Notes under the pieces: model-generated
The model's input: only the letters and a program-made list of their open reading frames with translations
Database searches by the model: none
Told to the model about the DNA's origin: nothing
From: Pontederia crassipes
Lineage: Eukaryota > Streptophyta > Magnoliopsida > Commelinales > Pontederiaceae
Reading direction: 5' to 3'
Length of the DNA stretch: 64,000 nt
Assembly: GCA_030549335.1 (NCBI GenBank)
Contig: JAUKPH010000018.1
Location: forward strand, 7,130,001-7,194,000
Made by a program: the position numbers and the translations under genes
Part shown: piece by piece, positions 1 through 55,872 of the stretch
How the letters are laid out: every line of letters begins with the position of its first letter
How positions within the stretch are numbered: position 1 is the first letter of the stretch

Positions 1-23
1 GATCTTTAGAACTTTAAATCTAT

Positions 24-40: not shown

Positions 41-41
41 C

Positions 42-61: not shown

Positions 62-97
62 CTCTTGGGGATTATAGTCTTAGAGTAAGGTGCAAAG

Positions 98-110
98 CTA
101 TAAGTTATAG
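98..110. repeat. Dyad CTATAA-G-TTATAG of the monomer
   Basis: A perfect 6-bp-arm palindrome around a single central base recurs at this position in most monomers. Class C has ctataagtaatag, which breaks the right arm. Class A has ttataagttatag, which shortens it. Dense short dyads of this sort have been proposed to matter in centromeric satellites that lack a CENP-B box; that link is inference here. Confidence 0.9.
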
Positions 111-20266: not shown

Positions 20267-21744
20267 GATCTTTAGAACTTTAACTCTATTTCAAGCCGAA
20301 GTTGAACCGTTACAATCAAAGATAACGCTCTCGGGGATTAGAGTCTTAGAGTAAGGTGCAAAGCTATAAGTTATAGATACTTATTACAACCTTTGGGTGC
20401 CCTATGAGGTGATAGATCTTTAGTACTTTAACTTATTTCAAACCGAAGTTGAACCGTTATAATCAAAGATAACGCTCTTGGGATTAGAGTCTTAGAGTTG
20501 GGTTCAAAGCTATAAGTAATAGATACTTATTACAACCTTTGGGTGTCCTAAGAGGTGATAGATCTTTAGAACTTTGACTCTATTTCAAACCGAAGTTGAA
20601 CCGTTACAATCAAAGAAAACGCTCTTGGGGATTTGAGTCTTTGTGTAAGGTGCAAAGCTATAAGTTATAGATACTTATTACAAACTTTGGGTGCCCTAAG
20701 AGGTGATAGATCTTTAGAACTTTAACTCTATTTCAAACCGAAGTTGAACTGTTACAATCAATGATAACTCTCTTGGGGATTAGAGTCTTAGAGTAAGGTG
20801 CAAAGCTATAAGTTATAGATACTTATTACAACCTTTGGGTGCCCTAAGAGGTGATAGATCTTTAGAACTTTAACTCTATTTCAAACCGAAGTTGAACCGT
20901 TACAATCAAAGATAACGCTCTTGGGGATTAGAGTCTTAGAGTTGGGTTCAAAGCTATAAGTTATAGATACTTATTGCAACCTTTGGGTGCCCTAAGAGGT
21001 GATAGATCTTTAGAACTTTAACTCTATTTCAAACCGAAGTTGAACCGTTACAATCAAAGATAACGCTCTTGGGGATTGGAGTCTTTGAGTAAGGTGCAAA
21101 GCTATAAGTTATAGATACTTATTACAACCTTTGGGTGCCCTAAGAGGTGATAGATCTTTAGAACTTTAACTCTATTTCAAGCCGAAGTTGAACCGTTACA
21201 ATCAAAGATAACGCTCTCGGGGATTAGAGTCTTAGAGTAAGGTGCAAAGCTATAAGTTATAGATACTTATTACAACCTTTGGGTGTCCTAAGAGGTGATA
21301 GTTCTTTAGAACTTTAACTCTATTTCAATCCGAAGTTGAACCGTTATAATCAAAGATAACGCTCTTGGGGATTAGAGTCTTAGAGTTGGGTTCAAAGCTA
21401 TAAGTTATAGATACTTATTACATCCTTTGGGTGTCCTAAGAGGTGATAGATCTTTAGAACTTTGACTCTATTTCAAACCGAAGTTGAACCGTTACAATCA
21501 AAGATAACGCTCTTGGGGATTTGAGTCTTAGAGTAAGGTGCAAAGCTATAAGTTATAGATACTTATTACAACCTTTGGGTGCCTTAAGAGTTGATAGATC
21601 TTTAGAACTTTAACTCTATTTCAAACCGAAGTTGAACCGTTACAATCAAAGATAATGCTCTTGGGGATTAGAGTCTTAGAGTTGGGTTCAAAGCTATAAG
21701 TTATAGATACTTATTACAACCTTTGGGTGTCCTAAGAGGAGATA
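20267..21744 (+). repeat. Core HOR, leading partial 15-mer (10 monomers)
   Basis: Order G C D E F' F G H I J, the last ten positions of the 15-mer. This is the left edge of the homogenised core. The F' unit at 20857 has attgcaacc, the mark later found in the C/F' hybrids. The I unit at 21449 has gccttaagagttg and the J unit has aatgctc. Confidence 0.9.
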
Positions 21745-23812
21745 GATCTTTAGAACTTTAAATCTATTTCAAACCGAAGTTGAACCGTTACAAACAAAGA
21801 TAATGCTCTTGGGGATTAGAGTCTTAGAGTAAGGTGCAAAGTTATAAGTTATAGATACTTATTACAACCTTTGGGTGCCCTAAGAGGTGATAGATCTTTA
21901 GAACTTTAACTCCATTTCAAACCGAAGTTGAACCGTTACATTCAAAGATAACGCTCTTGGGGATTGGAGTCTTTGAGTAAGGTGCAAAGCTATAAGTTAT
22001 AGATACTTATTACAACCTTTGGGTGCCCTATGAGGTGATAGATCTTTAGTACTTTAACTTATTTCAAACCGAAGTTGAACCGTTATAATCAAAGATAACG
22101 CTCTTGGGATTAGAGTCTTAGAGTTGGGTTCAAAGCTATAAGTAATAGATACTTATTACAACCTTTGGGTGTCCTAAGAGGTGATAGATCTTTAGAACTT
22201 TGACTCTATTTCAAACCGAAGTTGAACCGTTACAATCAAAGAAAACGCTCTTGGGGATTTGAGTCTTTGTGTAAGGTGCAAAGCTATAAGTTATAGATAC
22301 TTATTACAACCTTTGGGTGCCCTAAGAGGTGATAGATCTTTAGAACTTTAACTCTATTTCAAGCCGAAGTTGAACCGTTACAATCAAAGATAACGCTCTC
22401 GGGGATTAGAGTCTTAGAGTAAGGTGCAAAGCTATAAGTTATAGATACTTATTACAACCTTTGGGTGTCCTAAGAGGTGATAGTTCTTTAGAACTTTAAC
22501 TCTATTTCAATCCGAAGTTGAACCGTTATAATCAAAGATAACGCTCTTGGGGATTAGAGTCTTAGAGTTGGGTTCAAAGCTATAAGTTATAGATACTTAT
22601 TACATCCTTTGGGTGTCCTAAGAGGTGATAGATCTTTAGAACTTTGACTCTATTTCAAACCGAAGTTGAACCGTTACAAACAAAGATAATGCTCTTGGGG
22701 ATTAGAGTCTTAGAGTAAGGTGCAAAGTTATAAGTTATAGATACTTATTACAACCTTTGGGTGCCCTAAGAGGTGATAGATCTTTAGAACTTTAACTCCA
22801 TTTCAAACCGAAGTTGAACCGTTACAATCAAAGATAACGCTCTTGGGGATTGAAGTCTTTGAGTAAGGTGCAAAGCTATAAGTTATAGATACTTATTACA
22901 ACCTTTGGGTGCCCTATGAGGTGATAGGTCTTTAGTACTTTAACTTATTTCAAACCGAAGTTGAATCGTTATAATCAAAGATAACGCTCTTGGGATTAGA
23001 GTCTTAGAGTTGGGTTCAAAGCTATAAGTTATAGATACTTATTGCAACCTTTGGGTGCCCTAAGAGGTGATAGATCTTTAGAACTTTAACTCTATTTCAA
23101 ACCGAAGTTGAACCGTTACAATCAAAGATAACGCTCTTGGGGATTGGAGTCTTTGAGTAAGGTGCAAAGCTATAAGTTATAGATACTTATTACAACCTTT
23201 GGGTGCCCTAAGAGGTGATAGATCTTTAGAACTTTAACTCTATTTCAAGCCGAAGTTGAACCGTTACAATCAAAGATAACGCTCTCGGGGATTAGAGTCT
23301 TAGAGTAAGGTGCAAAGCTATAAGTTATAGATACTTATTACAACCTTTGGGTGTCCTAAGAGGTGATAGTTCTTTAGAACTTTAACTCTATTTCAATCCG
23401 AAGTTGAACCGTTATAATCAAAGATAACGCTCTTGGGGATTAGAGTCTTAGAGTTGGGTTCAAAGCTATAAGTTATAGATACTTATTACATCATTTGGGT
23501 GTCCTAAGAGGTGATAGATCTTTAGAACTTTGACTCTATTTCAAACCGAAGTTGAACCGTTACAATCAAAGATAACGCTCTTGGGGATTTGAGTCTTAGA
23601 GTACGGTGCAAAGCTATAAGTTATAGATACTTATTACAACCTTTGGGTGCCTTAAGAGTTGATAGATCTTTAGAACTTTAACTCTATTTCAAACCGAAGT
23701 TGAACCGTTGCAATCAAAGATAACGCTCTTGGGGATTAGAGTCTTAGAGTTGGGTTCAAAGCTATAAGTTATAGATACTTATTACAACCTTTGGGTGTCC
23801 TAAGAGGAGATA
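21745..23812 (+). repeat. Core HOR unit 1, 14-mer (2068 bp)
   Basis: Order A B C D G H I/A B C/F' F G H I J; length 14 x 148 - 4 bp, because two C-type units are 146 bp. The I/A hybrid is at 22631 and the C/F' hybrid at 22927. The unit reads as two partial HORs joined by the I/A recombinant. Confidence 0.9.
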
Positions 23813-26027
23813 GATCTTTAGAACTTTAAATCTATTTCAAACCGAAGTTGAACCGTTACAAACAAAGATAATGCTCTTGGGGATTAGAGTCTTAGAGTAA
23901 GGTGCAAAGTTATAAGTTATAGATACTTATTACAACCTTTGGGTGCCCTAAGAGGTGATAGATCTTTAGAACTTTAACTCCATTTCAAACCGAAGTTGAA
24001 CCGTTACAATCAAAGATAACGCTCTTGGGGATTGGAGTCTTTGAGTAAGGTGCAAAGCTATAAGTTATAGATACTTATTACAACCTTTGGGTGCCCTATG
24101 AGGTGATAGATCTTTAGTACTTTAACTTATTTCAAACCGAAGTTGAACCGTTATAATCAAAGATAACGCTCTTGGGATTAGAGTCTTAGAGTTGGGTTCA
24201 AAGCTATAAGTAATAGATACTTATTACAACCTTTGGGTGTCCTAAGAGGTGATAGATCTTTAGAACTTTGACTCTATTTCAAACCGAAGTTGAACCGTTA
24301 CAATCAAAGAAAACGCTCTTGGGGATTTGAGTCTTTGTGTAAGGTGCAAAGCTATAAGTTATAGATACTTATTACAAACTTTGGGTGCCCTAAGAGGTGA
24401 TAGATCTTTAGAACTTTAACTCTATTTCAAACCGAAGTTGAACCGTTACAATCAAAGATAACGCTCTTGGGGATTGGAGTATTTGAGTAAGGTGCAAAGC
24501 TATAAGTTATAGATACTTATTACAACCTTTGGGTGCCCTAAGAGGTGATAGATCTTTAGAACTTTAACTCTATTTCAAGCCGAAGTTGAACCGTTACAAT
24601 CAAAGATAACGCTCTCGGGGATTAGAGTCTTAGAGTAAGGTGCAAAGCTATAAGTTATAGATACTTATTACAACCTTTGGGTGCCCTATGAGGTGATAGA
24701 TCTTTAGTACTTTAACTTATTTCAAACCGAAGTTGAACCGTTATAATCAAAGATAACGCTCTTGGGATTAGAGTCTTAGAGTTGGGTTCAAAGCTATAAG
24801 TAATAGATACTTATTACAACCTTTGGGTGTCCTAAGAGGTGATAGATCTTTAGAACTTTGACTCTATTTCAAACCGAAGTTGAACCGTTACAATCAAAGA
24901 AAACGCTCTTGGGGATTTGAGTCTTTGTGTAAGGTGCAAAGCTATAAGTTATAGATACTTATTACAAACTTTGGGTGCCCTAAGAGGTGATAGATCTTTA
25001 GAACTTTAACTCTATTTCAAACCGAAGTTGAACTGTTACAATCAATGATAACTCTCTTGGGGATTAGAGTCTTAGAGTAAGGTGCAAAGCTATAAGTTAT
25101 AGATACTTATTACAACCTTTGGGTGCCCTAAGAGGTGATAGATCTTTAGAACTTTAACTCTATTTCAAACCGAAGTTGAACCGTTACAATCAAAGATAAC
25201 GCTCCTGGGGATTAGAGTCTTAGAGTTGGGTTCAAAGCTATAAGTTATAGATACTTATTACAACCTTTGGGTGCCCTAAGAGGTGATAGATCTTTAGAAC
25301 TTTAACTCTATTTCAAACCGAAGTTGAACCGTTACAATCAAAGATAACGCTCTTGGGGATTGGAGTCTTTGAGTAAGGTGCAAAGCTATAAGTTATAGAT
25401 ACTTATTACAACCTTTGGGTGCCCTAAGAGGTGATAGATCTTTAGAACTTTAACTCTATTTCAAGCCGAAGTTGAACCGTTACAATCAAAGATAACGCTC
25501 TCGGGGATTAGAGTCTTAGAGTAAGGTGCAAAGCTATAAGTTATAGATACTTATTACAACCTTTGGGTGTCCTAAGAGGTGATAGTTCTTTAGAACTTTA
25601 ACTCTATTTCAATCCGAAGTTGAACCGTTATAATCAAAGATAACGCTCTTGGGGATTAGAGTCTTAGAGTTGGGTTCAAAGCTATAAGTTATAGATACTT
25701 ATTACATCCTTTGGGTGTCCTAAGAGGTGATAGATCTTTAGAACTTTGACTCTATTTCAAACCGAAGTTGAACCGTTACAATCAAAGATAACGCTCTTGG
25801 GGATTTGAGTCTTAGAGTAAGGTGCAAAGCTATAAGTTATAGATACTTATTACAACCTTTGGGTGCCCTAAGAGTTGATAGATCTTTAGAACTTTAACTC
25901 TATTTCAAACCGAAGTTGAACCGTTACAATCAAAGATAACGCTCTCGGGGATTAGAGTCTTAGAGTTGGGTTCAAGCTATAAGTTATAGATACTTATTAC
26001 AACCTTTGGGTGTCCTAAGAGGAGATA
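23813..26027 (+). repeat. Core HOR unit 2, 15-mer (2215 bp)
   Basis: Order A B C D F G C D E F' F G H I J. Two C units (-2 bp each) and one missing base in the J unit at 25881 (gggttcaagc) account for the length. The first F has ggattggagtatttgag. Confidence 0.92.
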
Positions 26028-27209
26028 GATCTTTAGAACTTTAAATCTATTTCAAACCGAAGTTGAACCGTTACAAACAAAGATAATGCTCTTGGGGATT
26101 AGAGTCTTAGAGTAAGGTGCAAAGTTATAAGTTATAGATACTTATTACAACCTTTGGGTGCCCTAAGAGGTGATAGATCTTTAGAACTTTAACTCCATTT
26201 CAAACCGAAGTTGAACCGTTACAATCAAAGATAACGCTCTTGGGGATTGAAGTCTTTGAGTAAGGTGCAAAGCTATAAGTTATAGATACTTATTACAACC
26301 TTTGGGTGCCCTATGAGGTGATAGGTCTTTAGTACTTTAACTTATTTCAAACCGAAGTTGAATCGTTATAATCAAAGATAACGCTCTTGGGATTAGAGTC
26401 TTAGAGTTGGGTTCAAAGCTATAAGTTATAGATACTTATTGCAACCTTTGGGTGCCCTAAGAGGTGATAGATCTTTAGAACTTTAACTCTATTTCAAACC
26501 GAAGTTGAACCGTTACAATCAAAGATAACGCTCTTGGGGATTGGAGTCTTTGAGTAAGGTGCAAAGCTATAAGTTATAGATACTTATTACAACCTTTGGG
26601 TGCCCTAAGAGGTGATAGATCTTTAGAACTTTAACTCTATTTCAAGCCGAAGTTGAACCGTTACAATCAAAGATAACGCTCTCGGGGATTAGAGTCTTAG
26701 AGTAAGGTGCAAAGCTATAAGTTATAGATACTTATTACAACCTTTGGGTGTCCTAAGAGGTGATAGTTCTTTAGAACTTTAACTCTATTTCAATCCGAAG
26801 TTGAACCGTTATAATCAAAGATAACGCTCTTGGGGATTAGAGTCTTAGAGTTGGGTTCAAAGCTATAAGTTATAGATACTTATTACATCCTTTGGGTGTC
26901 CTAAGAGGTGATAGATCTTTAGAACTTTGACTCTATTTCAAACCGAAGTTGAACCGTTACAATCAAAGATAACGCTCTTGGGGATTTGAGTCTTAGAGTA
27001 AGGTGCAAAGCTATAAGTTATAGATACTTATTACAACCTTTGGGTGCCTTAAGAGTTGATAGATCTTTAGAACTTTAACTCTATTTCAAACCGAAGTTGA
27101 ACCGTTGCAATCAAAGATAACGCTCTTGGGGATTAGAGTCTTAGAGTTGGGTTCAAAGCTATAAGTTATAGATACTTATTACAACCTTTGGGTGTCCTAA
27201 GAGGAGATA
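26028..27209 (+). repeat. Core HOR unit 3, 8-mer (1182 bp)
   Basis: Order A B C/F' F G H I J. The C/F' hybrid at 26324 replaces eight 15-mer positions (C D F G C D E F') with one. Private marks are ggattgaagtc in B, gataggtcttt and gaatcgtt in C/F', gccttaag in I, and gttgcaatc in J. Confidence 0.92.
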
Positions 27210-27357
27210 GATCTTTAGAACTTTAAATCTATTTCAAACCGAAGTTGAACCGTTACAAACAAAGATAATGCTCTTGGGGATTAGAGTCTTAGAGTAAGGT
27301 GCAAAGTTATAAGTTATAGATACTTATTACAACCTTTGGGTGCCCTAAGAGGTGATA
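27210..27357 (+). repeat. Monomer class A (reference copy)
   Basis: Marks: preceded by aggagata, then actttaaatc, acaaacaaag, aatgctc (C60T), and aaagttataag, which loses the agct and shortens the dyad. Every core HOR unit is counted from its A. Confidence 0.9.
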
Positions 27358-27505
27358 GATCTTTAAAACTTTAACTCCATTTCAAACCGAAGTTGAACCG
27401 TTACAATCAAAGATAACGCTCTTGGGGATTGGAGTCTTTGAGTAAGGTGCAAAGCTATAAGTTATAGATACTTATTACAACCTTTGGGTGCCCTATGAGG
27501 TGATA
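27358..27505 (+). repeat. Monomer class B (reference copy)
   Basis: Marks: aactccatttc, ggattggagtctttgag and the tail gtgccctatgagg. Sub-variants carry accaaag with acaataaaag, or ggattgaag. This copy has the private ctttaaaac. Confidence 0.9.
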
Positions 27506-27651
27506 GATCTTTAGTACTTTAACTTATTTCAAACCGAAGTTGAACCGTTATAATCAAAGATAACGCTCTTGGGATTAGAGTCTTAGAGTTGGGTTCAAAG
27601 CTATAAGTAATAGATACTTATTACAACCTTTGGGTGTCCTAAGAGGTGATA
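27506..27651 (+). repeat. Monomer class C, 146 bp (reference copy)
   Basis: Marks: tagtactttaacttatttc (one base missing), ttataatc, cttgggatt (one base missing) and ctataagtaatag. Both deletions occur together in every C unit, so each C shifts the array phase by -2 bp. The dyad at 27601-27613 is broken. Confidence 0.92.
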
Positions 27652-27799
27652 GATCTTTAGAACTTTGACTCTATTTCAAACCGAAGTTGAACCGTTACAA
27701 TCAAAGAAAACGCCCTTGGGGATTTGAGTCTTTGTGTAAGGTGCAAAGCTATAAGTTATAGATACTTATTACAAACTTTGGGTGCCCTAAGAGGTGATA
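27652..27799 (+). repeat. Monomer class D (reference copy)
   Basis: Marks: actttgactc, aagaaaacg, gatttgagtctttgtgtaag, and in most copies acaaactttggg. The 5' half resembles class I, which allows D/I exchange (see 51883). Confidence 0.9.
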
Positions 27800-27947
27800 G
27801 ATCTTTAGAACTTTAACTCTATTTCAAACCGAAGTTGAACCGTTACAATCAAAGATAACGCTCTTGGGGATTGGAGTATTTGAGTAAGGTGCAAAGCTAT
27901 AAGTTATAGATACTTATTACAACCTTTGGGTGCCCTAAGAGGTGATA

Positions 27948-28095
27948 GATCTTTAGAACTTTAACTCTATTTCAAGCCGAAGTTGAACCGTTACAATCAA
28001 AGATAACGCTCTCGGGGATTAGAGTCTTAGAGTAAGGTGCAAAGCTATAAGTTATAGATACTTATTACAACCTTTGGGTGCCCTATGAGGTGATA
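27948..28095 (+). repeat. Monomer class G (reference copy)
   Basis: Marks: ttcaagccg and ctctcgggg, which adds a fourth CpG and a CTCGGG site absent from most other classes. The rest is close to the general consensus, with gtaaggtgc. Confidence 0.88.
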
Positions 28096-28389
28096 GATCT
28101 TTAGTACTTTAACTTATTTCAAACCGAAGTTGAACCGTTATAATCAAAGATAACGCTCTTGGGATTAGAGTCTTAGAGTTGGGTTCAAAGCTATAAGTAA
28201 TAGATACTTATTACAACCTTTGGGTGTCCTAAGAGGTGATAGATCTTTAGAACTTTGACTCTATTTCAAACCGAAGTTGAACCGTTACAATCAAAGAAAA
28301 CGCTCTTGGGGATTTGAGTCTTTGTGTAAGGTGCAAAGCTATAAGTTATAGATACTTATTACAAACTTTGGGTGCCCTAAGAGGTGATA

Positions 28390-28537
28390 GATCTTTAGAA
28401 CTTTAACTCTATTTCAAACCGAAGTTGAACTGTTACAATCAATGATAACTCTCTTGGGGATTAGAGTCTTAGAGTAAGGTGCAAAGCTATAAGTTATAGA
28501 TACTTATTACAACCTTTGGGTGCCCTAAGAGGTGATA
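28390..28537 (+). repeat. Monomer class E (reference copy)
   Basis: Marks: aactgtt (C42T), caatgataactctc (G61T) and gtaaggtgc. Two of its three consensus CpG sites are lost. Confidence 0.9.
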
Positions 28538-28685
28538 GATCTTTAGAACTTTAACTCTATTTCAAACCGAAGTTGAACCGTTACAATCAAAGATAACGCT
28601 CTTGGGGATTAGAGTCTTAGAGTTGGGTTCAAAGCTATAAGTTATAGATACTTATTACAACCTTTGGGTGCCCTAAGAGGTGATA
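28538..28685 (+). repeat. Monomer class F' (reference copy)
   Basis: Near-consensus 5' half, then ggattagagtcttagagttgg and the tail gtgccctaagagg. Present only in the longer HOR units. It is the 3' donor of the C/F' hybrid: the copy at 20857 carries the attgcaacc seen in those hybrids. Confidence 0.85.
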
Positions 28686-28833
28686 GATCTTTAGAACTTT
28701 AACTCTATTTCAAACCGAAGTTGAACCGTTACAATCAAAGATAACGCTCTTGGGGATTGGAGTCTTTGAGTAAGGTGCAAAGCTATAAGTTATAGATACT
28801 TATTACAACCTTTGGGTGCCCTAAGAGGTGATA
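28686..28833 (+). repeat. Monomer class F (reference copy)
   Basis: Near-consensus 5' half with ggattggagtctttgag, like class B, and the tail gtgccctaagagg. Used twice in the 15-mer. Confidence 0.85.
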
Positions 28834-28981
28834 GATCTTTAGAACTTTAACTCTATTTCAAGCCGAAGTTGAACCGTTACAATCAAAGATAACGCTCTCG
28901 GGGATTAGAGTCTTAGAGTAAGGTGCAAAGCTATAAGTTATAGATACTTATTACAACCTTTGGGTGTCCTAAGAGGTGATA

Positions 28982-29129
28982 GTTCTTTAGAACTTTAACT
29001 CTATTTCAATCCGAAGTTGAACCGTTATAATCAAAGATAACGCTCTCGGGGATTAGAGTCTTAGAGTTGGGTTCAAAGCTATAAGTTATAGATACTTATT
29101 ACATCCTTTGGGTGTCCTAAGAGGTGATA
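28982..29129 (+). repeat. Monomer class H (reference copy)
   Basis: Marks: gttctttag in place of gatctttag, ttcaatccg, ttataatc, tgggttc and acatcctttggg. A sub-variant with aaaccg and gttgtgttc occurs at about 36365, 39025 and 49667. Confidence 0.9.
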
Positions 29130-29277
29130 GATCTTTAGAACTTTGACTCTATTTCAAACCGAAGTTGAACCGTTACAATCAAAGATAACGCTCTTGGGGA
29201 TTTGAGTCTTAGAGTAAGGTGCAAAGCTATAAGTTATAGATACTTATTACAACCTTTGGGTGCCCTAAGAGTTGATA
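29130..29277 (+). repeat. Monomer class I (reference copy)
   Basis: Marks: actttgactc, acaatcaaagataacg, gatttgagtcttagagtaag and the tail gtgccctaagagttg. It is the most frequent 5' partner in hybrids (I/A, I/J, I/F). Confidence 0.88.
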
Positions 29278-29425
29278 GATCTTTAGAACTTTAACTCTAT
29301 TTCAAACCGAAGTTGAACCGTTACAATCAAAGATAACGCTCTCGGGGATTAGAGTCTTAGAGTTGGGTTCAAAGCTATAAGTTATAGATACTTATTACAA
29401 CCTTTGGGTGTCCTAAGAGGAGATA
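29278..29425 (+). repeat. Monomer class J (reference copy)
   Basis: Near-consensus body with ctctcgggg in this copy, tgggttc, and the tail gtgtcctaagaggag that always leads into class A. Confidence 0.87.
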
Positions 29426-30607
29426 GATCTTTAGAACTTTAAATCTATTTCAAACCGAAGTTGAACCGTTACAAACAAAGATAATGCTCTTGGGGATTAG
29501 AGTCTTAGAGTAAGGTGCAAAGTTATAAGTTATAGATACTTATTACAACCTTTGGGTGCCCTAAGAGGTGATAGATCTTTAGAACTTTAACTCCATTTCA
29601 AACCGAAGTTGAACCGTTACAATCAAAGATAACGCTCTTGGGGATTGAAGTCTTTGAGTAAGGTGCAAAGCTATAAGTTATAGATACTTATTACAACCTT
29701 TGGGTGCCCTATGAGGTGATAGGTCTTTAGTACTTTAACTTATTTCAAACCGAAGTTGAATCGTTATAATCAAAGATAACGCTCTTGGGATTAGAGTCTT
29801 AGAGTTGGGTTCAAAGCTATAAGTTATAGATACTTATTGCAACCTTTGGGTGCCCTAAGAGGTGATAGATCTTTAGAACTTTAACTCTATTTCAAACCGA
29901 AGTTGAACCGTTACAATCAAAGATAACGCTCTTGGGGATTGGAGTCTTTGAGTAAGGTGCAAAGCTATAAGTTATAGATACTTATTACAACCTTTGGGTG
30001 CCCTAAGAGGTGATAGATCTTTAGAACTTTAACTCTATTTCAAGCCGAAGTTGAACCGTTACAATCAAAGATAACGCTCTCGGGGATTAGAGTCTTAGAG
30101 TAAGGTGCAAAGCTATAAGTTATAGATACTTATTACAACCTTTGGGTGTCCTAAGAGGTGATAGTTCTTTAGAACTTTAACTCTATTTCAATCCGAAGTT
30201 GAACCGTTATAATCAAAGATAACGCTCTTGGGGATTAGAGTCTTAGAGTTGGGTTCAAAGCTATAAGTTATAGATACTTATTACATCCTTTGGGTGTCCT
30301 AAGAGGTGATAGATCTTTAGAACTTTGACTCTATTTCAAACCGAAGTTGAACCGTTACAATCAAAGATAACGCTCTTGGGGATTTGAGTCTTAGAGTAAG
30401 GTGCAAAGCTATAAGTTATAGATACTTATTACAACCTTTGGGTGCCTTAAGAGTTGATAGATCTTTAGAACTTTAACTCTATTTCAAACCGAAGTTGAAC
30501 CGTTGCAATCAAAGATAACGCTCTTGGGGATTAGAGTCTTAGAGTTGGGTTCAAAGCTATAAGTTATAGATACTTATTACAACCTTTGGGTGTCCTAAGA
30601 GGAGATA
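29426..30607 (+). repeat. Core HOR unit 5, 8-mer (1182 bp)
   Basis: Order A B C/F' F G H I J, with the same private marks as unit 3 (ggattgaag, gataggtc, gaatcgtt, gccttaag, gttgcaatc). The C/F' hybrid is at 29722. Confidence 0.92.
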
Positions 30608-32823
30608 GATCTTTAGAACTTTAAATCTATTTCAAACCGAAGTTGAACCGTTACAAACAAAGATAATGCTCTTGGGGATTAGAGTCTTAGAGTAAGGTGC
30701 AAAGTTATAAGTTATAGATACTTATTACAACCTTTGGGTGCCCTAAGAGGTGATAGATCTTTAGAACTTTAACTCCATTTCAAACCGAAGTTGAACCGTT
30801 ACAATCAAAGATAACGCTCTTGGGGATTGGAGTCTTTGAGTAAGGTGCAAAGCTATAAGTTATAGATACTTATTACAACCTTTGGGTGCCCTATGAGGTG
30901 ATAGATCTTTAGTACTTTAACTTATTTCAAACCGAAGTTGAACCGTTATAATCAAAGATAACGCTCTTGGGATTAGAGTCTTAGAGTTGGGTTCAAAGCT
31001 ATAAGTAATAGATACTTATTACAACCTTTGGGTGTCCTAAGAGGTGATAGATCTTTAGAACTTTGACTCTATTTCAAACCGAAGTTGAACCGTTACAATC
31101 AAAGAAAACGCCCTTGGGGATTTGAGTCTTTGTGTAAGGTGCAAAGCTATAAGTTATAGATACTTATTACAAACTTTGGGTGCCCTAAGAGGTGATAGAT
31201 CTTTAGAACTTTAACTCTATTTCAAACCGAAGTTGAACCGTTACAATCAAAGATAACGCTCTTGGGGATTGGAGTCTTTGAGTAAGGTGCAAAGCTATAA
31301 GTTATAGATACTTATTACAACCTTTGGGTGCCCTAAGAGGTGATAGATCTTTAGAACTTTAACTCTATTTCAAGCCGAAGTTGAACCGTTACAATCAAAG
31401 ATAACGCTCTCGGGGATTAGAGTCTTAGAGTAAGGTGCAAAGCTATAAGTTATAGATACTTATTACAACCTTTGGGTGCCCTATGAGGTGATAGATCTTT
31501 AGTACTTTAACTTATTTCAAACCGAAGTTGAACCGTTATAATCAAAGATAACGCTCTTGGGATTAGAGTCTTAGAGTTGGGTTCAAAGCTATAAGTAATA
31601 GATACTTATTACAACCTTTGGGTGTCCTAAGAGGTGATAGATCTTTAGAACTTTGACTCTATTTCAAACCGAAGTTGAACCGTTACAATCAAAGAAAACG
31701 CTCTTGGGGATTTGAGTCTTTGTGTAAGGTGCAAAGCTATAAGTTATAGATACTTATTACAAACTTTGGGTGCCCTAAGAGGTGATAGATCTTTAGAACT
31801 TTAACTCTATTTCAAACCGAAGTTGAACTGTTACAATCAATGATAACTCTCTTGGGGATTAGAGTCTTAGAGTAAGGTGCAAAGCTATAAGTTATAGATA
31901 CTTATTACAACCTTTGGGTGCCCTAAGAGGTGATAGATCTTTAGAACTTTAACTCTATTTCAAACCGAAGTTGAACCGTTACAATCAAAGATAACGCTCT
32001 TGGGGATTAGAGTCTTAGAGTTGGGTTCAAAGCTATAAGTTATAGATACTTATTACAACCTTTGGGTGCCCTAAGAGGTGATAGATCTTTAGAACTTTAA
32101 CTCTATTTCAAACCGAAGTTGAACCGTTACAATCAAAGATAACGCTCTTGGGGATTGGAGTCTTTGAGTAAGGTGCAAAGCTATAAGTTATAGATACTTA
32201 TTACAACCTTTGGGTGCCCTAAGAGGTGATAGATCTTTAGAACTTTAACTCTATTTCAAGCCGAAGTTGAACCGTTACAATCAAAGATAACGCTCTCGGG
32301 GATTAGAGTCTTAGAGTAAGGTGCAAAGCTATAAGTTATAGATACTTATTACAACCTTTGGGTGTCCTAAGAGGTGATAGTTCTTTAGAACTTTAACTCT
32401 ATTTCAATCCGAAGTTGAACCGTTATAATCAAAGATAACGCTCTCGGGGATTAGAGTCTTAGAGTTGGGTTCAAAGCTATAAGTTATAGATACTTATTAC
32501 ATCCTTTGGGTGTCCTAAGAGGTGATAGATCTTTAGAACTTTGACTCTATTTCAAACCGAAGTTGAACCGTTACAATCAAAGATAACGCTCTTGGGGATT
32601 TGAGTCTTAGAGTAAGGTGCAAAGCTATAAGTTATAGATACTTATTACAACCTTTGGGTGCCCTAAGAGTTGATAGATCTTTAGAACTATAACTCTATTT
32701 CAAACCGAAGTTGAACCGTTACAATCAAAGATAACGCTCTCGGGGATTAGAGTCTTAGAGTTGGGTTCAAAGCTATAAGTTATAGATACTTATTACAACC
32801 TTTTGGTGTCCTAAGAGGAGATA
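30608..32823 (+). repeat. Core HOR unit 6, 15-mer (2216 bp)
   Basis: Same order and length as unit 4 and the same gaaaacgccc mark in the first D. The J unit has a private aactataactc, and the tail is accttttggtgtcc. Confidence 0.92.
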
Positions 32824-34596
32824 GATCTTTAGAACTTTAAATCTATTTCAAACCGAAGTTGAACCGTTACAAACAAAGATAATGCTCTTGGGGATTAGAG
32901 TCTTAGAGTAAGGTGCAAAGTTATAAGTTATAGATACTTATTACAACCTTTGGGTGCCCTAAGAGGTGATAGATCTTTAGAACTTTAACTCCATTTCAAA
33001 CCGAAGTTGAACCGTTACAATCAAAGATAACGCTCTTGGGGATTGGAGTCTTTGAGTAAGGTGCAAAGCTATAAGTTATAGATACTTATTACAACCTTTG
33101 GGTGCCCTATGAGGTGATAGATCTTTAGTACTTTAACTTATTTCAAACCGAAGTTGAACCGTTATAATCAAAGATAACGCTCTTGGGATTAGAGTCTTAG
33201 AGTTGGGTTCAAAGCTATAAGTAATAGATACTTATTACAACCTTTGGGTGTCCTAAGAGGTGATAGATCTTTAGAACTTTGACTCTATTTCAAACCGAAG
33301 TTGAACCGTTACAATCAAAGAAAACGCTCTTGGGGATTTGAGTCTTTGTGTAAGGTGCAAAGCTATAAGTTATAGATACTTATTACAAACTTTGGGTGCC
33401 CTAAGAGGTGATAGATCTTTAGAACTTTAACTCTATTTCAAACCGAAGTTGAACCGTTACAATCAAAGATAACGCTCTTGGGGATTGGAGTCTTTGAGTA
33501 AGGTGCAAAGCTATAAGTTATAGATACTTATTACAACCTTTGGGTGCCCTAAGAGGTGATAGATCTTTAGAACTTTAACTCTATTTCAAGCCGAAGTTGA
33601 ACCGTTACAATCAAAGATAACGCTCTCGGGGATTAGAGTCTTAGAGTAAGGTGCAAAGCTATAAGTTATAGATACTTATTACAACCTTTGGGTGCCCTAT
33701 GAGGTGATAGATCTTTAGTACTTTAACTTATTTCAAACCGAAGTTGAACCGTTATAATCAAAGATAACGCTCTTGGGATTAGAGTCTTAGAGTTGGGTTC
33801 AAAGCTATAAGTTATAGATACTTATTGCAACCTTTGGGTGCCCTAAGAGGTGATAGATCTTTAGAACTTTAACTCTATTTCAAACCGAAGTTGAACCGTT
33901 ACAATCAAAGATAACGCTCTTGGGGATTGGAGTCTTTGAGTAAGGTGCAAAGCTATAAGTTATAGATACTTATTACAACCTTTGGGTGCCCTAAGAGGTG
34001 ATAGATCTTTAGAACTTTAACTCTATTTCAAGCCGAAGTTGAACCGTTACAATCAAAGATAACGCTCTCGGGGATTAGAGTCTTAGAGTAAGGTGCAAAG
34101 CTATAAGTTATAGATACTTATTACAACCTTTGGGTGTCCTAAGAGGTGATAGTTCTTTAGAACTTTAACTCTATTTCAATCCGAAGTTGAACCGTTATAA
34201 TCAAAGATAACGCTCTCGGGGATTAGAGTCTTAGAGTTGGGTTCAAAGCTATAAGTTATAGATACTTATTACATCCTTTGGGTGTCCTAAGAGGTGATAG
34301 ATCTTTAGAACTTTGACTCTATTTCAAACCGAAGTTGAACCGTTACAATCAAAGATAACGCTCTTGGGGATTTGAGTCTTAGAGTAAGGTGCAAAGCTAT
34401 AAGTTATAGATACTTATTACAACCTTTGGGTGCCCTAAGAGTTGATAGATCTTTAGAACTTTAACTCTATTTCAAACCGAAGTTGAACCGTTACAATCAA
34501 AGATAACGCTCTCGGGGATTAGAGTCTTTAGAGTTGGGTTCAAAGCTATAAGTTATAGATACTTATTACAACCTTTTGGTGTCCTAAGAGGAGATA
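32824..34596 (+). repeat. Core HOR unit 7, 12-mer (1773 bp)
   Basis: Order A B C D F G C/F' F G H I J. The C/F' hybrid at 33710 replaces only four positions (C D E F'). Length is 12 x 148 - 4 + 1. The extra base is in J (gagtctttagagttggg). Confidence 0.91.
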
Positions 34597-36812: not shown

Positions 36813-37550
36813 GATCTTTAGAACTTTAAATCTATTTCAAACCGAAGTTGAACCGTTACAAACAAAGATAATGCTCTTGGGGATTAGAGTCTTAGAGTAA
36901 GGTGCAAAGTTATAAGTTATAGATACTTATTACAACCTTTGGGTGCCCTAAGAGGTGATAGATCTTTAGAACTTTAACTCCATTTCAAACCAAAGTTGAA
37001 CCGTTACAATAAAAGATAACGCTCTTGGGGATTGGAGTCTTTGAGTAAGGTGCAAAGCTATAAGTTATAGATACTTATTACAACCTTTGGGTGCCCTATG
37101 AGGTGATAGATCTTTAGTACTTTAACTTATTTCAAACCGAAGTTGAACCGTTATAATCAAAGATAACGCTCTTGGGATTAGAGTCTTAGAGTTGGGTTCA
37201 AAGCTATAAGTAATAGATACTTATTACAACCTTTGGGTGTCCTAAGAGGTGATAGATCTTTAGAACTTTGACTCTATTTCAAACCGAAGTTGAACCGTTA
37301 CAATCAAAGAAAACGCTCTTGGGGATTTGAGTCTTTGTGTAAGGTGCAAAGCTATAAGTTATAGATACTTATTACAAACTTTGGGTGCCCTAAGAAGTGA
37401 TAGATCTTTAGAACTTTAACTCTATTTCAAACCGAAGTTGAACTGTTACAATCAATGATAACGCTCTCGGGGATTAGAGTCTTAGAGTTGGGTTCAAAGC
37501 TATAAGTTATAGATACTTATTACAACCTTTGGGTGTCCTAAGAGGAGATA
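36813..37550 (+). repeat. Core HOR unit 9, 5-mer (738 bp)
   Basis: Order A B C D E/J. The hybrid at 37403 has the E marks aactgtt and caatgata, then the J marks ctctcgggg, tgggttc and aggag. B carries accaaag and acaataaaag. Confidence 0.92.
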
Positions 37551-39472
37551 GATCTTTAGAACTTTAAATCTATTTCAAACCGAAGTTGAACCGTTACAAA
37601 CAAAGATAATGCTCTTGGGGATTAGAGTCTTAGAGTAAGGTGCAAAGTTATAAGTTATAGATACTTATTACAACCTTTGGGTGCCCTAAGAGGTGATAGA
37701 TCTTTAGAACTTTAACTCCATTTCAAACCAAAGTTGAACCGTTACAATAAAAGATAACGCTCTTGGGGATTGGAGTCTTTGAGTAAGGTGCAAAGCTATA
37801 AGTTATAGATACTTATTACAACCTTTGGGTGCCCTATGAGGTGATAGATCTTTAGTACTTTAACTTATTTCAAACCGAAGTTGAACCGTTATAATCAAAG
37901 ATAACGCTCTTGGGATTAGAGTCTTAGAGTTGGGTTCAAAGCTATAAGTAATAGATACTTATTACAACCTTTGGGTGTCCTAAGAGGTGATAGATCTTTA
38001 GAACTTTGACTCTATTTCAAACCGAAGTTGAACCGTTACAATCAAAGAAAACGCTCTTGGGGATTTGAGTCTTTGTGTAAGGTGCAAAGCTATAAGTTAT
38101 AGATACTTATTACAAACTTTGGGTGCCCTAAGAAGTGATAGATCTTTAGAACTTTAACTCTATTTCAAACCGAAGTTGAACTGTTACAATCAATGATAAC
38201 TCTCTTGGGGATTAGAGTCTTAGAGTAAGGTGCAAAGCTATAAGTTATAGATACTTATTACAACCTTTGGGTGCCCTAAGAGGTGATAGATCTTTAGAAC
38301 TTTAACTCTATTTCAAACCGAAGTTGAACCGTTACAATCAAAGATAACGCTCTTGGGGATTGGAGTCTTTGAGTAAGGTGCAAAGCTATAAGTTATAGAT
38401 ACTTATTACAACCTTTGGGTGCCCTAAGAGGTGATAGATCTTTAGAACTTTAACTCTATTTCAAGCCGAAGTTGAACCGTTACAATCAAAGATAACGCTC
38501 TCGGGGATTAGAGTCTTAGAGTAAGGTGCAAAGCTATAAGTTATAGATACTTATTACAACCTTTGGGTGTCCTAAGAGGTGATAGTTCTTTAGAACTTTA
38601 ACTCTATTTCAATCCGAAGTTGAACCGTTATAATCAAAGATAACGCTCTTGGGGATTAGAGTCTTAGAGTTGGGTTCAAAGCTATAAGTTATAGATACTT
38701 ATTACATCCTTTGGGTGTCCTAAGAGGTGATAGATCTTTAGAACTTTGACTCTATTTCAAACCGAAGTTGAACCGTTACAATCAAAGATAACGCTCTTGG
38801 GGATTGGAGTCTTTGAGTAAGGTGCAAAGCTATAAGTTATAGATACTTATTACAACCTTTGGGTGCCCTAAGAGGTGATAGATCTTTAGAACTTTAACTC
38901 TATTTCAAGCCGAAGTTGAACCGTTACAATCAAAGATAACGCTCTCGGGGATTAGAGTCTTAGAGTAAGGTGCAAAGCTATAAGTTATAGATACTTATTA
39001 CAACCTTTGGGTGTCCTAAGAGGTGATAGTTCTTTAGAACTTTAACTCTATTTCAAACCGAAGTTGAACCGTTATAATCAAAGATAACGCTCTTGGGGAT
39101 TAGAGTCTTAGAGTTGTGTTCAAAGCTATAAGTTATAGATACTTATTACATCCTTTGGGTGTCCTAAGAGGTGATAGATCTTTAGAACTTTGACTCTATT
39201 TCAAACCGAAGTTGAACCGTTACAATCAAAGATAACGCTCTTGGGGATTTGAGTCTTAGAGTAAGGTGCAAAGCTATAAGTTATAGATACTTATTACAAC
39301 CTTTGGGTGCCCTAAGAGTTGATAGATCTTTAGAACTTTAATTCTATTTCAAACCGAAGTTGAACCGTTACAATCAAAGATAACGCTCTCGGGGATTAGA
39401 GTCTTAGAGTTGGGTTCAAAGCTATAAGTTATAGATACTTATTACAACCTTTGGGTGTCCTAAGAGGAGATA
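37551..39472 (+). repeat. Core HOR unit 10, 13-mer (1922 bp)
   Basis: Order A B C D E F G H I/F G H I J. The I/F hybrid at 38733 joins actttgactc to ggattggagtctttgag. It is the junction of a 2660-bp tandem duplication whose first copy starts at about 36073. Confidence 0.92.
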
Positions 39473-40210: not shown

Positions 40211-41540
40211 GATCTTTAGAACTTTAAATCTATTTCAAACCGAAGTTGAACCGTTACAAACAAAGATAATGCTCTTGGGGATTAGAGTCTTAGAGTAAGG
40301 TGCAAAGTTATAAGTTATAGATACTTATTACAACCTTTGGGTGCCCTAAGAGGTGATAGATCTTTAGAACTTTAACTCCATTTCAAACCAAAGTTGAACC
40401 GTTACAATAAAAGATAACGCTCTTGGGGATTGGAGTCTTTGAGTAAGGTGCAAAGCTATAAGTTATAGATACTTATTACAACCTTTGGGTGCCCTATGAG
40501 GTGATAGATCTTTAGTACTTTAACTTATTTCAAACCGAAGTTGAACCGTTATAATCAAAGATAACGCTCTTGGGATTAGAGTCTTAGAGTTGGGTTCAAA
40601 GCTATAAGTAATAGATACTTATTACAACCTTTGGGTGTCCTAAGAGGTGATAGATCTTTAGAACTTTGACTCTATTTCAAACCGAAGTTGAACCGTTACA
40701 ATCAAAGAAAACGCTCTTGGGGATTTGAGTCTTTGTGTAAGGTGCAAAGCTATAAGTTATAGATACTTATTACAAACTTTGGGTGCCCTAAGAAGTGATA
40801 GATCTTTAGAACTTTAACTCTATTTCAAACCGAAGTTGAACTGTTACAATCAATGATAACTCTCTTGGGGATTAGAGTCTTAGAGTAAGGTGCAAAGCTA
40901 TAAGTTATAGATACTTATTACAACCTTTGGGTGCCCTAAGAGGTGATAGATCTTTAGAACTTTAACTCTATTTCAAACCGAAGTTGAACCGTTACAATCA
41001 AAGATAACGCTCTTGGGGATTGGAGTCTTTGAGTAAGGTGCAAAGCTATAAGTTATAGATACTTATTACAACCTTTGGGTGCCCTAAGAGGTGATAGATC
41101 TTTAGAACTTTAACTCTATTTCAAGCCGAAGTTGAACCGTTACAATCAAAGATAACGCTCTCGGGGATTAGAGTCTTAGAGTAAGGTGCAAAGCTATAAG
41201 TTATAGATACTTATTACAACCTTTGGGTGTCCTAAGAGGTGATAGTTCTTTAGAACTTTAACTCTATTTCAATCCGAAGTTGAACCGTTATAATCAAAGA
41301 TAACGCTCTTGGGGATTAGAGTCTTAGAGTTGGGTTCAAAGCTATAAGTTATAGATACTTATTACATCCTTTGGGTGTCCTAAGAGGTGATAGATCTTTA
41401 GAACTTTGACTCTATTTCAAACCGAAGTTGAACCGTTACAATCAAAGATAACGCTCTTGGGGATTTGAGTCTTAGAGTTGGGTTCAAAGCTATAAGTTAT
41501 AGATACTTATTACAACCTTTGGGTGTCCTAAGAGGAGATA
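40211..41540 (+). repeat. Core HOR unit 12, 9-mer (1330 bp)
   Basis: Order A B C D E F G H I/J. The last unit at 41393 has the I-type gatttgag followed by the J-type tgggttc and aggag tail. B has accaaag and D ends aagaagtgat. It appears identical by eye to unit 14. Confidence 0.93.
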
Positions 41541-42870
41541 GATCTTTAGAACTTTAAATCTATTTCAAACCGAAGTTGAACCGTTACAAACAAAGATAAT
41601 GCTCTTGGGGATTAGAGTCTTAGAGTAAGGTGCAAAGTTATAAGTTATAGATACTTATTACAACCTTTGGGTGCCCTAAGAGGTGATAGATCTTTAGAAC
41701 TTTAACTCCATTTCAAACCGAAGTTGAACCGTTACAATAAAAGATAACGCTCTTGGGGATTGGAGTCTTTGAGTAAGGTGCAAAGCTATAAGTTATAGAT
41801 ACTTATTACAACCTTTGGGTGCCCTATGAGGTGATAGATCTTTAGTACTTTAACTTATTTCAAACCGAAGTTGAACCGTTATAATCAAAGATAACGCTCT
41901 TGGGATTAGAGTCTTAGAGTTGGGTTCAAAGCTATAAGTAATAGATACTTATTACAACCTTTGGGTGTTCTAAGAGGTGATAGATCTTTAGAACTTTGAC
42001 TCTATTTCAAACCGAAGTTGAACCGTTACAATCAAAGAAAACGCTCTTGGGGATTTGAGTCTTTGTGTAATGTGCAAAGCTATAAGTTATAGATACTTAT
42101 TACAACCTTTGGGTGCCCTAAGAGGTGATAGATCTATAGAACTTTAACTCTATTTCAAACCGAAGTTGAACTGTTACAATCAATGATAACTCTCTTGGGG
42201 ATTAGAGTCTTAGAGTAAGGTGCAAAGCTATAAGTTATAGATACTTATTACAACCTTTGGGTGCCCTAAGAGGTGATAGATCTTTAGAACTTTAACTCTA
42301 TTTCAAACCGAAGTTGAACCGTTACAATCAAAGATAACGCTCTTGGGGATTGGAGTCTTTGAGTAAGGTGCAAAGCTATAAGTTATAGATACTTATTACA
42401 ACCTTTGGGTGCCCTAAGAGGTGATAGATCTTTAGAACTTTAACTCTATTTCAAGCCGAAGTTGAACCGTTACAATCAAAGATAACGCTCTTGGGGATTA
42501 GAGTCTTTGAGTAAGGTGCAAAGCTATAAGTTATAGATACTTATTACAACCTTTGGGTGTCCTAAGAGGTGATAGTTCTTTAGAACTTTAACTCTATTTC
42601 AATCCGAAGTTGAACCGTTATAATCAAAGATAACGCTCTTGGGGATTAGAGTCTTAGAGTTGGGTTCAAAGCTATAAGTTATAGATACTTATTACATCCT
42701 TTGGGTGTCCTAAGAGGTGATAGATCTTTAGAACTTTGACTCTATTTCAAACCGAAGTTGAACCGTTACAATCAAAGATAACGCTCTTGGGGATTTGAGT
42801 CTTAGAGTAAGGTGCAAAGCTATAAGTTATAGATACTTATTACAACCTTTGGGTTTCCTAAGATGAGATA
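41541..42870 (+). repeat. Core HOR unit 13, 9-mer (1330 bp)
   Basis: Sub-variant of the 9-mer: C ends gtgttcta, D has gtaatgtgc, E starts gatctatag, and I keeps gtaaggtgc and ends gggtttcc. It differs from unit 15 at two places seen by eye (G: cttgg against ctcgg; tail: gatgag against gaggag). Confidence 0.93.
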
Positions 42871-46860: not shown

Positions 46861-47894
46861 GATCTTTAGAACTTTAAATCTATTTCAAACCGAAGTTGAA
46901 CCGTTACAAACAAAGATAATGCTCTTGGGGATTAGAGTCTTAGAGTAAGGTGCAAAGTTATAAGTTATAGATACTTATTACAACCTTTGGGTGCCCTAAG
47001 AGGTGATAGATCTTTAGAACTTTAACTCTATTTCAAACCGAAGTTGAACCGTTACAATCAAAGATAACGCTCTTGGGGATTGGAGTCTTTGAGTAAGGTG
47101 CAAAGCTATAAGTTATAGATACTTATTACAACCTTTGGGTGCCCTATGAGGTGATAGACCTTTAGTACTTTAACTTATTTCAAACCGAAGTTGAACCGTT
47201 ATAATCAAAGATAACGCTCTTGGGATTAGAGTCTTAGAGTTGGGTTCAAAGCTATAAGTAATAGATACTTATTACAACCTTTGGGTGTTCTAAGAGGTGA
47301 TAGATCTTTAGAACTTTGACTCTATTTCAAACCGAAGTTGAACCGTTACAATCAAAGAAAACGCTCTTGGGGATTTGAGTCTTTGTGTAATGTGCAAAGC
47401 TATAAGTTATAGATACTTATTACAACCTTTGGGTGCCCTAAGAGGTGATAGATCTATAGAACTTTAACTCTATTTCAAACCGAAGTTGAACTGTTACAAT
47501 CAATGATAACTCTCTTGGGGATTAGAGTCTTAGAGTAAGGTGCAAAGCTATAAGTTATAGATACTTATTACAACCTTTGGGTGCCCTAAGAGGTGATAGA
47601 TCTTTAGAACTTTAACTCTATTTCAAACCGAAGTTGAACCGTTACAATCAAAGATAACGCTCTTGGGGATTAGAGTCTTAGAGTTGGGTTCAAAGCTATA
47701 AGTTATAGATACTTATTACAACCTTTGGGTGCCCTAAGAGGTGATAGATCTTTAGAACTTTAACTCTATTTCAAACCGAAGTTGAACCGTTACAATCAAA
47801 GATAACGCTCTTGGGGATTGGAGTCTTTGAGTAAGGTGCAAAGCTATAAGTTATAGATACTTATTACAACCTTTTGGTGTCCTAAGAGGAGATA
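46861..47894 (+). repeat. Core HOR unit 17, 7-mer (1034 bp)
   Basis: Order A B C D E F' F. It shares gaccttt and gatctatag with unit 16. F' returns here, and the last F has an accttttggtgtcc tail that leads directly into A, so the F 5' part is fused to a J-type tail. Confidence 0.91.
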
Positions 47895-51440: not shown

Positions 51441-52178
51441 GATCTTTAGAACTTTAAATCTATTTCAAACCGAAGTTGAACCGTTACAAACAAAGATAAT
51501 GCTCTTGGGGATTAGAGTCTTAGAGTAAGGTGCAAAGTTATAAGTTATAGATACTTATTACAACCTTTGGGTGCCCTAAGAGTTGATAGATCTTTAGAAC
51601 TTTAACTCCATTTCAAACCGAAGTTGAACCGTTACAATAAAAGATAACGCTCTTGGGGATTGGAGTCTTTGAGTAAGGTGCAAAGCTATAAGTTATAGAT
51701 ACTTATTACAACCTTTGGGTGCCCTATGAGGTGATAGATCTTTAGTACTTTAACTTATTTCAAACCGAAGTTGAACCGTTATAATCAAAGATAACGCTCT
51801 TGGGATTAGAGTCTTAGAGTTGGGTTCAAAGCTATAAGTAATAGATACTTATTACAACCTTTGGGTGTTCTAAGAGGTGATAGATCTTTAGAACTTTGAC
51901 TCTATTTCAAACCGAAGTTGAACCGTTACAATCAAAGATAACGCTCTTGGGGATTTGAGTCTTAGAGTAAGGTGCAAAGCTATAAGTTATAGATACTTAT
52001 TACAACCTTTGGGTGCCCTAAGAGTTGATAGATCTTTAGAACTTTAACTCTATTTCAAACCGAAGTTGAACCGTTACAATCAAAGATAACGCTCTCGGGG
52101 ATTAGAGTCTTAGAGTTGGGTTCAAAGCTATAAGTTATAGATACTTATTACAACCTTTGGGTGTCCTAAGAGGAGATA
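51441..52178 (+). repeat. Core HOR unit 20, 5-mer (738 bp)
   Basis: Order A B C D/I J. C has the gtgttcta mark of the unit 13 lineage. The unit at 51883 starts like both D and I (gactc) and continues as I (aagataacg, agagttg). This is a different route to a 5-mer from units 9 and 11. Confidence 0.91.
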
Positions 52179-54838: not shown

Positions 54839-55872
54839 GATCTTTAGAACTTTAAATCTATTTCAAACCGAAGTTGAACCGTTACAAACAAAGATAATGC
54901 TCTTGGGGATTAGAGTCTTAGAGTAAGGTGCAAAGTTATAAGTTATAGATACTTATTACAACCTTTGGGTGCCCTAAGAGGTGATAGATCTTTAGAACTT
55001 TAACTCTATTTCAAACCGAAGTTGAACCGTTACAATCAAAGATAACGCTCTTGGGGATTGGAGTCTTTGAGTAAGGTGCAAAGCTATAAGTTATAGATAC
55101 TTATTACAACCTTTGGGTGCCCTATGAGGTGATAGATCTTTAGTACTTTAACTTATTTCAAACCGAAGTTGAACCGTTATAATCAAAGATAACGCTCTTG
55201 GGATTAGAGTCTTAGAGTTGGGTTCAAAGCTATAAGTAATAGATACTTATTACAACCTTTGGGTGTTCTAAGAGGTGATAGATCTTTAGAACTTTGACTC
55301 TATTTCAAACCGAAGTTGAACCGTTACAATCAAAGAAAACGCTCTTGGGGATTTGAGTCTTTGTGTAATGTGCAAAGCTATAAGTTATAGATACTTATTA
55401 CAACCTTTGGGTGCCCTAAGAGGTGATAGATCTATAGAACTTTAACTCTATTTCAAACCGAAGTTGAACTGTTACAATCAATGATAACTCTCTTGGGGAT
55501 TAGAGTCTTAGAGTAAGGTGCAAAGCTATAAGTTATAGATACTTATTACAACCTTTGGGTGCCCTAAGAGGTGATAGATCTTTAGAACTTTAACTCTATT
55601 TCAAACCGAAGTTGAACCGTTACAATCAAAGATAACGCTCTTGGGGATTAGAGTCTTAGAGTTGGGTTCAAAGCTATAAGTTATAGATACTTATTACAAC
55701 CTTTGGGTGCCCTAAGAGGTGATAGATCTTTAGAACTTTAACTCTATTTCAAACCGAAGTTGAACCGTTACAATCAAAGATAACGCTCTTGGGGATTGGA
55801 GTCTTTGAGTAAGGTGCAAAGCTATAAGTTATAGATACTTATTACAACCTTTGGGTGTCCTAAGAGGTGATA
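54839..55872 (+). repeat. Core HOR unit 23, last partial unit (7 monomers)
   Basis: Order A B C D E F' F. Like units 16 and 17 it has aactctatttc in B, but C starts gatcttt. Its last F runs into diverged flank monomers with a gtgtcc tail, so this is the right edge of the homogenised core. Confidence 0.9.

Follow-up and report, generated by a model that had tools for sequence, protein, structure and literature searches.

The stretch of Pontederia crassipes DNA analysed here (GenBank assembly GCA_030549335.1, contig JAUKPH010000018.1, positions 7,130,001 to 7,194,000 of the forward strand; 64,000 nt, hereafter the window) is a single satellite array, the core of which (positions 20267 to 55872) is a mosaic of the monomers of one putative ancestral unit. 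Recombination with switch points inside monomers accounts for the lengths of the repeat units in this core, and the monomers that look like hybrids of two classes are not independent old classes. The switches within monomers are in register, 11 parent monomers suffice to supply them, and near-identical duplicate blocks end at several of the seams. The best explanation overall, in which we place considerable confidence, is that the core descended from a higher-order repeat unit of 11 monomers (11-mer) by in-register exchange, which left hybrid monomers at the seams, followed by duplication of blocks. A preliminary description of the same sequence had proposed that a small set of recombinant monomers explains the unit lengths; that account holds in the main, but its rules need correcting.

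The program Tandem Repeats Finder reported one array with a period of 148 over bases 1-64000, with 433 copies and 93% matches. The window was cut in the phase GATCTTTAG, giving 432 whole monomers that were then clustered, and the columns of the monomer were numbered 1-148 counting from GATC. The monomers comprise 388 of 148 bp, 35 of 146 bp, 8 of 147 bp and 1 of 149 bp; in the core, 208 of the 241 monomers are 148 bp long, 31 are 146 bp, and 1 each is 147 and 149 bp, all thus being 146-149 bp in length. The limits of the core given in the preliminary description and the 148-bp phase were borne out. Our class letters differ from the earlier ones, in that D (146 bp), K, E, H and G correspond to its C, F', D, E and J, respectively, and I is I in both; hybrids are written with the front class before the slash, and the D/K hybrid monomers are named V. 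The array has the properties of a higher-order-repeat satellite, since its classes differ at 0-15 sites and the copies of a 23-monomer block described below at only 0.29 sites per monomer. All features below lie on the forward strand.

To describe the core (241 monomers, 35,668 columns) we fitted a path through a circular monomer reference, with jumps allowed at any column but in register only. The 15-monomer reference was the consensus of five 15-mers, and the 11-monomer reference consisted of 11 of those monomers in the order A2 D E H K A1 C1 F I G B. With the former, the best path required 41 jumps and left 128 mismatches, and was the same at switch penalties of 6, 8 and 10. The 11-monomer reference equalled this fit, with 41 jumps of 12 types and 128 mismatches (0.36% of the columns). 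Restricting the jumps to a single fixed column lost 167 to 502 log-likelihood units against free switching for every one of the 148 columns (41 jumps at 129 of the columns, 39 at the other 19). The fit also held out of sample: when the reference was made from four 15-mers of the left domain, the 128 monomers of the right domain (18,944 columns) required 24 jumps and left 79 mismatches. The flanks are not accounted for by switching within the 11-mer. The left flank (1..20266), composed of more diverged monomers of the same satellite, required 106 jumps and left 355 mismatches in 20,276 columns, and the right flank (55873..64000), whose diverged monomers include a C1-F-I-G-B stretch and an A2-D-E-H-K stretch, required 37 jumps and left 123 mismatches in 7,992 columns. 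The left flank has a long repeat of its own, in which 34 consecutive monomers (1-5028 versus 8876-13903, an offset of 60 monomers or 8875 bp) differ at 0.21 sites per monomer.

The preliminary description had proposed that fits of each hybrid to its parents would tell switch points from separate old classes. We performed ordered two-parent fits among the 11 classes, with a null in which an equal number of changes was drawn from the class alleles. The hybrids fitted as two-parent mosaics, with 0 to 3 residual sites. Parents were unique for H/G (37403, 40063), both kinds of I/G (41393; 42723), A1/G (47747) and C1/A2 (20267, 24551). In all seven of these monomers the neighbours on either side agree with what the parents predict, with the proviso that 20267 follows a flank monomer equally close (4 differences) to two classes. 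One parent could be chosen in two to four ways from the sequence alone in 22187, 22631, the V monomers and 38733, and there the neighbours select one; at 33710 the left neighbour is the hybrid C2, the back half of which is A2. Against the random-allele null, p was 0.002 for 41393, 0.028 for 37403, 0.033 for each of 22631 and 42723, 0.066 for 33710, 0.17 for 47747, 0.21 for 22927, 0.28 for 22187 and 0.53 for 38733. A test resembling PHI, applied to distinct monomers with the site order permuted, showed that incompatible site pairs are rarer at short distance, as recombination predicts (p at 20 and 50 bp: 0.002 and 0.005 in the core, 0.003 and 0.042 in all monomers, 0.004 and 0.030 in the flanks). 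When ten distinct hybrids were held to the definition used by CentromereArchitect (within 1% of the front of X joined to the back of Y), eight fell within it, with no residual site in 22187, 22631, 37403, 38733, 41393 and C2, and one in 33710 and 47747; the V of the 8-mer (3 residual sites, or 2 if the donor was the 120G form of K) and 42723 (2 residual sites) lay beyond it.

That the hybrids are independent old monomer classes, sharing the marks of two parents by chance, is hardly credible. Private changes of the kind that this explanation expects do occur, namely 2G and 41T in the V of the 8-mer and 133T in one kind of I/G. However, the residuals from a two-parent mosaic are few and the neighbours match the parents; moreover, the core with its monomer order shuffled requires 220-229 jumps against 41 (5 shuffles), and duplicate blocks start at the hybrids.

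The four monomers previously described as C/F' hybrids are all D/K hybrids, with the switch in columns 68-106 and a right half that bears 120G (the 'attgcaacc' mark). Three belong to 8-mers (22927..23072, with copies at 26324 and 29722) and carry 2G and 41T in addition to 120G; the fourth (33710..33855) belongs to the 12-mer, does not carry 2G and 41T, and lies at the seam of a 12-monomer tandem duplication. Apart from the four V monomers, 120G occurs in the window only at 6952 and 20857. The left half of 33710 has 0 differences from the D at 35483, and its right half differs only by 120G from the K at 31936, the predicted donor; since the donor does not have this mark, the seam needs a further exchange, conversion or repeated mutation. 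The D/K fusion may have had one origin, as argued by 120G, or two, with the 12-monomer seam at 33710 as a second exchange.

Both of the monomers described as E/J hybrids are H/G hybrids with the switch in columns 55-61 (37403..37550, and a copy at 40063), the former being the seam of a 738-bp duplication. The I/J fusions were likewise found in all eight 9-monomer units, but they are of two kinds rather than one. The first switches in columns 75-87 (41393..41540; copies 44053, 51293 and 53361), and the second in columns 93-134 with the mark 133T (42723..42870; copies 45383, 46713 and 54691). The different switch points imply that the loss occurred at least twice or was remade by later exchange. 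The two kinds alternate in part of an 18-monomer (2660-bp) period. On the other hand, the monomer at 51883..52030, previously called a D/I hybrid, has 0 differences from plain I; it stands where the two copies of a 14-monomer (2068-bp) tandem duplication meet, and the junction can be placed anywhere from column 124 of the D monomer (136 if the 135T of D is used) to column 56 of the next.

Several junctions had gone unmentioned: E/A, I/B, I/A, A/G, C1/A2, E/K and H/K. The C1/A2 hybrid (C2; 24551..24698), with the switch in columns 83-134, is present in the 15-mers and the 12-mer, in seven core copies (20267, 24551, 27948, 31346, 33562, 35335 and 48633), and left no residual site in the two copies tested. 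The I/A hybrid (38733..38880) joins the two copies of an 18-monomer (2660-bp) tandem duplication. Three junctions are single copies. At 22187..22334, an E without 124A is followed by C1, which is read as an E to A1 junction; as six further core E monomers lack 124A, this reading comes from the neighbours only. The I/B hybrid (22631..22778) switches in columns 19-50. The A1/G hybrid (47747..47894) has a right arm that matches the array from 34448 onward (a 19-monomer run at offset 90), and shares 129T with 32676 and 34448. The 15-mer that stands within the 9-mer domain at 47895-50700 corresponds along 19 monomers to 34597-37402, 13,298 bp away, and the two regions share the A1 mark 1T (35187, 48485), as a distant copy would. 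The F monomers at 28982, 32380 and 34152 carry 66C, a mark of C and G, possibly from a short gene-conversion patch or repeated mutation.

Runs of similar monomers were collected at offsets of 4-99 monomers, with each monomer pair within 1 difference, and a run length equal to the offset (within one monomer) was taken as the mark of a single tandem duplication. All six such runs in the core begin at or directly after a junction monomer; the seams were already known when the runs were looked for, a single event is represented twice among the six, and the 26 listed junction monomers and their followers make up 0.21 of the core, with 9 H/K and 6 E/K junctions left off the list. The copies at 36073-38732 and 38733-41392 differ at 1 site in 2660 bp, the 16G of the hybrid itself, and both carry the rare 18T. 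Those at 49815-51882 and 51883-53950 differ at 2 sites in 2068 bp and share the rare mark 30T (50259 and 52327), which is found elsewhere in the window only at 61642. The 738-bp copies at 36665-37402 and 37403-38140 are distinguished by 3 bases, which all fall within the left portion of the seam monomer. Of the 11 differences between the 2660-bp copies of the 18-monomer duplication with its seam at 42723, the seam monomer accounts for 10. The 12-monomer duplication at 33710 shows 4 substitutions in its 11 interior monomers and a 1-bp insertion in 34448. We concluded that the best reading of I/A, D/I, H/G, one I/G kind and the D/K of the 12-mer is as seams left by the tandem duplication of 18, 14, 5, 18 and 12 monomers, respectively. 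For H/G, a deletion is arithmetically equal to a duplication of five and the marks do not decide; a duplication is preferred because the four interior monomers are identical.

Block copying also multiplied some hybrids. A super-unit of 23 monomers (8-mer plus 15-mer, 3397/3398 bp) is present in three copies at 22779..32971, seen as a 48-monomer run at offset 23 with the mean difference given above. The three 8-mer V monomers, which share 2G and 41T, sit in these three copies, and the two H/G monomers sit in the two copies of a 2660-bp block. The copies of one hybrid are therefore not all separate events.

It is rather improbable that some of the seams are assembly artefacts, produced by misjoined or duplicated reads. 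The 2660-bp copies that meet at 38733 and differ at one base only are what such an error would leave, and the single-copy junctions at 22187, 22631 and 47747 have no independent support. Yet the other duplications have differences of their own, as seen in the 2068-bp and the 23-monomer copies, and every junction found is in register.

All of the unit lengths reported previously (2216, 1773, 1330, 1182 and 738 bp) are present in the core, but they are not all exact, as the 1773 bp include the 1-bp insertion in 34448 (1772 by arithmetic), and a 1-bp deletion shortens one of the five 15-mers to 2215 bp. Cut to end in B, the core yields 24 units and a 6-monomer tail. The units comprise eight 9-mers, five 15-mers, three 8-mers, three 5-mers and one each of 13, 12, 11, 7 and 6 monomers, the one of 11 being clipped by the core edge; the 14-mer listed in the preliminary description is not among them.

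In the preliminary description, the 15-mer served as the base, and the shorter units were derived from it by putting a single hybrid in place of a run of monomers, a scheme of deletions only. We consider this unlikely. Its arithmetic works for the 8-, 12- and 5-mers, and the fits obtained with the 15- and 11-monomer references are equally good; but the 15-mer itself has two switches, with the C1/A2 hybrid inside it, and the flanks retain A2-D-E-H without the insert. Furthermore, I/A adds monomers, and near-identical tandem copies meet at I/A, D/I and I/G kind 2. The replacement of eight monomers by one is unnecessary for the 8-mer, for which the 11-mer minus 3 monomers suffices, and the I/J fusion alone is insufficient for the 9-mer, which requires the loss of K as well (11-1-1=9). 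The fit alone does not separate 11 from 15, and the greater age of the 11-mer is inferred from the order of monomers. The consensus D and E are identical at both of their places in the 15-mer. Each of the three flank D monomers (4291, 13166 and 62382) is part of an A2-D-E-H-K series; 4291 and 13166 belong one to each copy of the 34-monomer repeat of the left flank. F follows all five of the flank monomers that are C1-like (within 3 differences), and C2 is the closest class for none of the 191 flank monomers. Since C2 is a C1/A2 hybrid and the flanks keep A2-D-E-H-K without it, the 15-mer is probably the derived unit (11+6-2=15).

The core would then be a young satellite block descended from one 11-mer. 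Homology-directed exchange between misaligned, in-register copies would join the front of one monomer to the back of another, and each event would duplicate or remove a block of whole monomers, leaving one seam monomer, usually a recognisable hybrid, with later block duplications multiplying some hybrids. The probable order begins with the 11-mer, from which the C1/A2 duplication of 6 and the H-K loss would give the 15-mer; a D/K loss of 3 would give the 8-mer, and then the 23-monomer repeat; the loss of K, followed by I/G, would give the 9-mers; and there would have been block duplications of 5, 12, 14 and 18 monomers. Outside the D and V monomers, the only indels in the core are a 1-bp deletion (25881) and a 1-bp insertion (34448), neither at a junction. 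That the junctions are in register and free of indels argues for homology-directed repair, not end joining. The tracts of identical bases at the junctions span 6 to 129 bases. Reciprocal unequal exchange and break-induced replication or template switching both fit. Gene conversion without exchange, with the changes in length due to separate slippage, is very unlikely to have made the hybrids. Marks that look like short patches point towards it, such as the 66C that C and G share with some F monomers, and the B mark 60T present in the G at 21597. But conversion alone would keep the unit length and often give two switches, and the register also changes at the fitted switches.

A number of points weigh against descent from the 11-mer by in-register exchange. 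Each taken alone, five of the nine hybrids fail the random-allele null at p<0.05 (four pass), as would be expected of old classes, and the PHI-like test on the 11 parents alone was negative (p=0.91, 9 sites). All fitted jumps are in register by construction, as the fit permitted no other kind, and no clear bias of the junctions towards long identical tracts was seen (mean percentile 0.64, 12 types). The fourth E-like monomer of the flanks (59422, 3 differences) is neither preceded by D nor followed by H. The 120G of 33710, missing from its donor, and the 66C in C, G and some F monomers go beyond what simple crossovers explain. The direction of change may be either deletion or duplication for the 8-mer D/K, E/A, I/B, H/K, E/K and I/G kind 1. 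Finally, the seams rest on the assembly as given.

Hybrid monomers and derived shorter units are already known from human alpha satellite (PMC8336445; PMC11062924). The higher-order repeats of human chromosome 8 have an ancestral 11-mer with derived units of 4, 7 and 8 (PMC8997354), and those of chromosome 5 (D5Z2) an ancestral 10-mer with derived units of 4 and 6 (PMC11062924). Both resemble the present array in having a longer ancestral unit, shorter derived units and older material at the edges (PMC8997354; PMC11062924). In contrast to them, the array studied here has 148-bp monomers, classes 0-15 sites apart, no CENP-B box and several junctions that are single tandem-duplication seams. Its 148-bp period sets it apart from primate alpha satellite with monomers of about 171 bp, and the CENP-B box, sought as a 15-base pattern, had 0 matches in the window with up to 1 mismatch. 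The monomer has a palindrome of its own, CTATAAGTTATAG, in columns 98-110, which is intact in 350 of the 432 monomers of the window and is broken by 106A in the D monomers. In the human CentromereArchitect study, a hybrid monomer, the front of X plus the back of Y, is proposed as a source of new monomers, and the tool handles infrequent monomers within 1% of X+Y (PMC8336445); our hybrids are built alike, but the 8-mer V and 42723 go beyond that limit. How higher-order repeats originate is debated, and the literature holds both unequal exchange and break-induced replication (PMC8997354); a human study describes new units that arose once each, amplification in saltatory steps, and patterns pointing beyond simple unequal crossover (PMC11062924).

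Among plant satellites, the 1,131-bp unit of switchgrass, which has six monomers and a truncated one (PMC4053949), is likewise a multi-monomer unit; unlike it, the present core is without a truncated monomer and all joins found are in register. The centromeric repeat of strawberry (Fragaria), 147 bp on 25 of the 28 chromosomes and 148 bp on 1B (PMC10807706), was set beside ours by length and not by sequence, and the likeness is in monomer length only; the 148-bp non-CentO repeat of rice chromosome 10 also matches in length only. Vaccinium VaccSat1 (138-148 bp) was dropped, as its GC content is 18.4% against 35-37% in the window. Six pieces of the satellite (20-25 bases) matched no text in the literature searched, the stretches tried in plasmids gave no match, and one exact 20-base pattern was unmatched in GTDB genome contigs and IMG/VR. 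We assume that the array, putatively, is centromeric or pericentromeric.

We tentatively suggest that this non-alpha satellite may have a 35-kb core that arose from one 11-mer, with about 12 kinds of junction, and that grew mainly by single-step in-register duplications of 5-18 monomers with readable seams, one of them recent enough, with its 2660 bp unchanged outside the seam, for individuals to be expected to differ for it. If this is true, crossover, break-induced replication and conversion would be separable from sequence. The overall picture is unchanged, in that an expected process is found in another satellite with unusually legible seams; with its steps legible at base resolution and several clean duplication seams, the array is a good test case outside primates.

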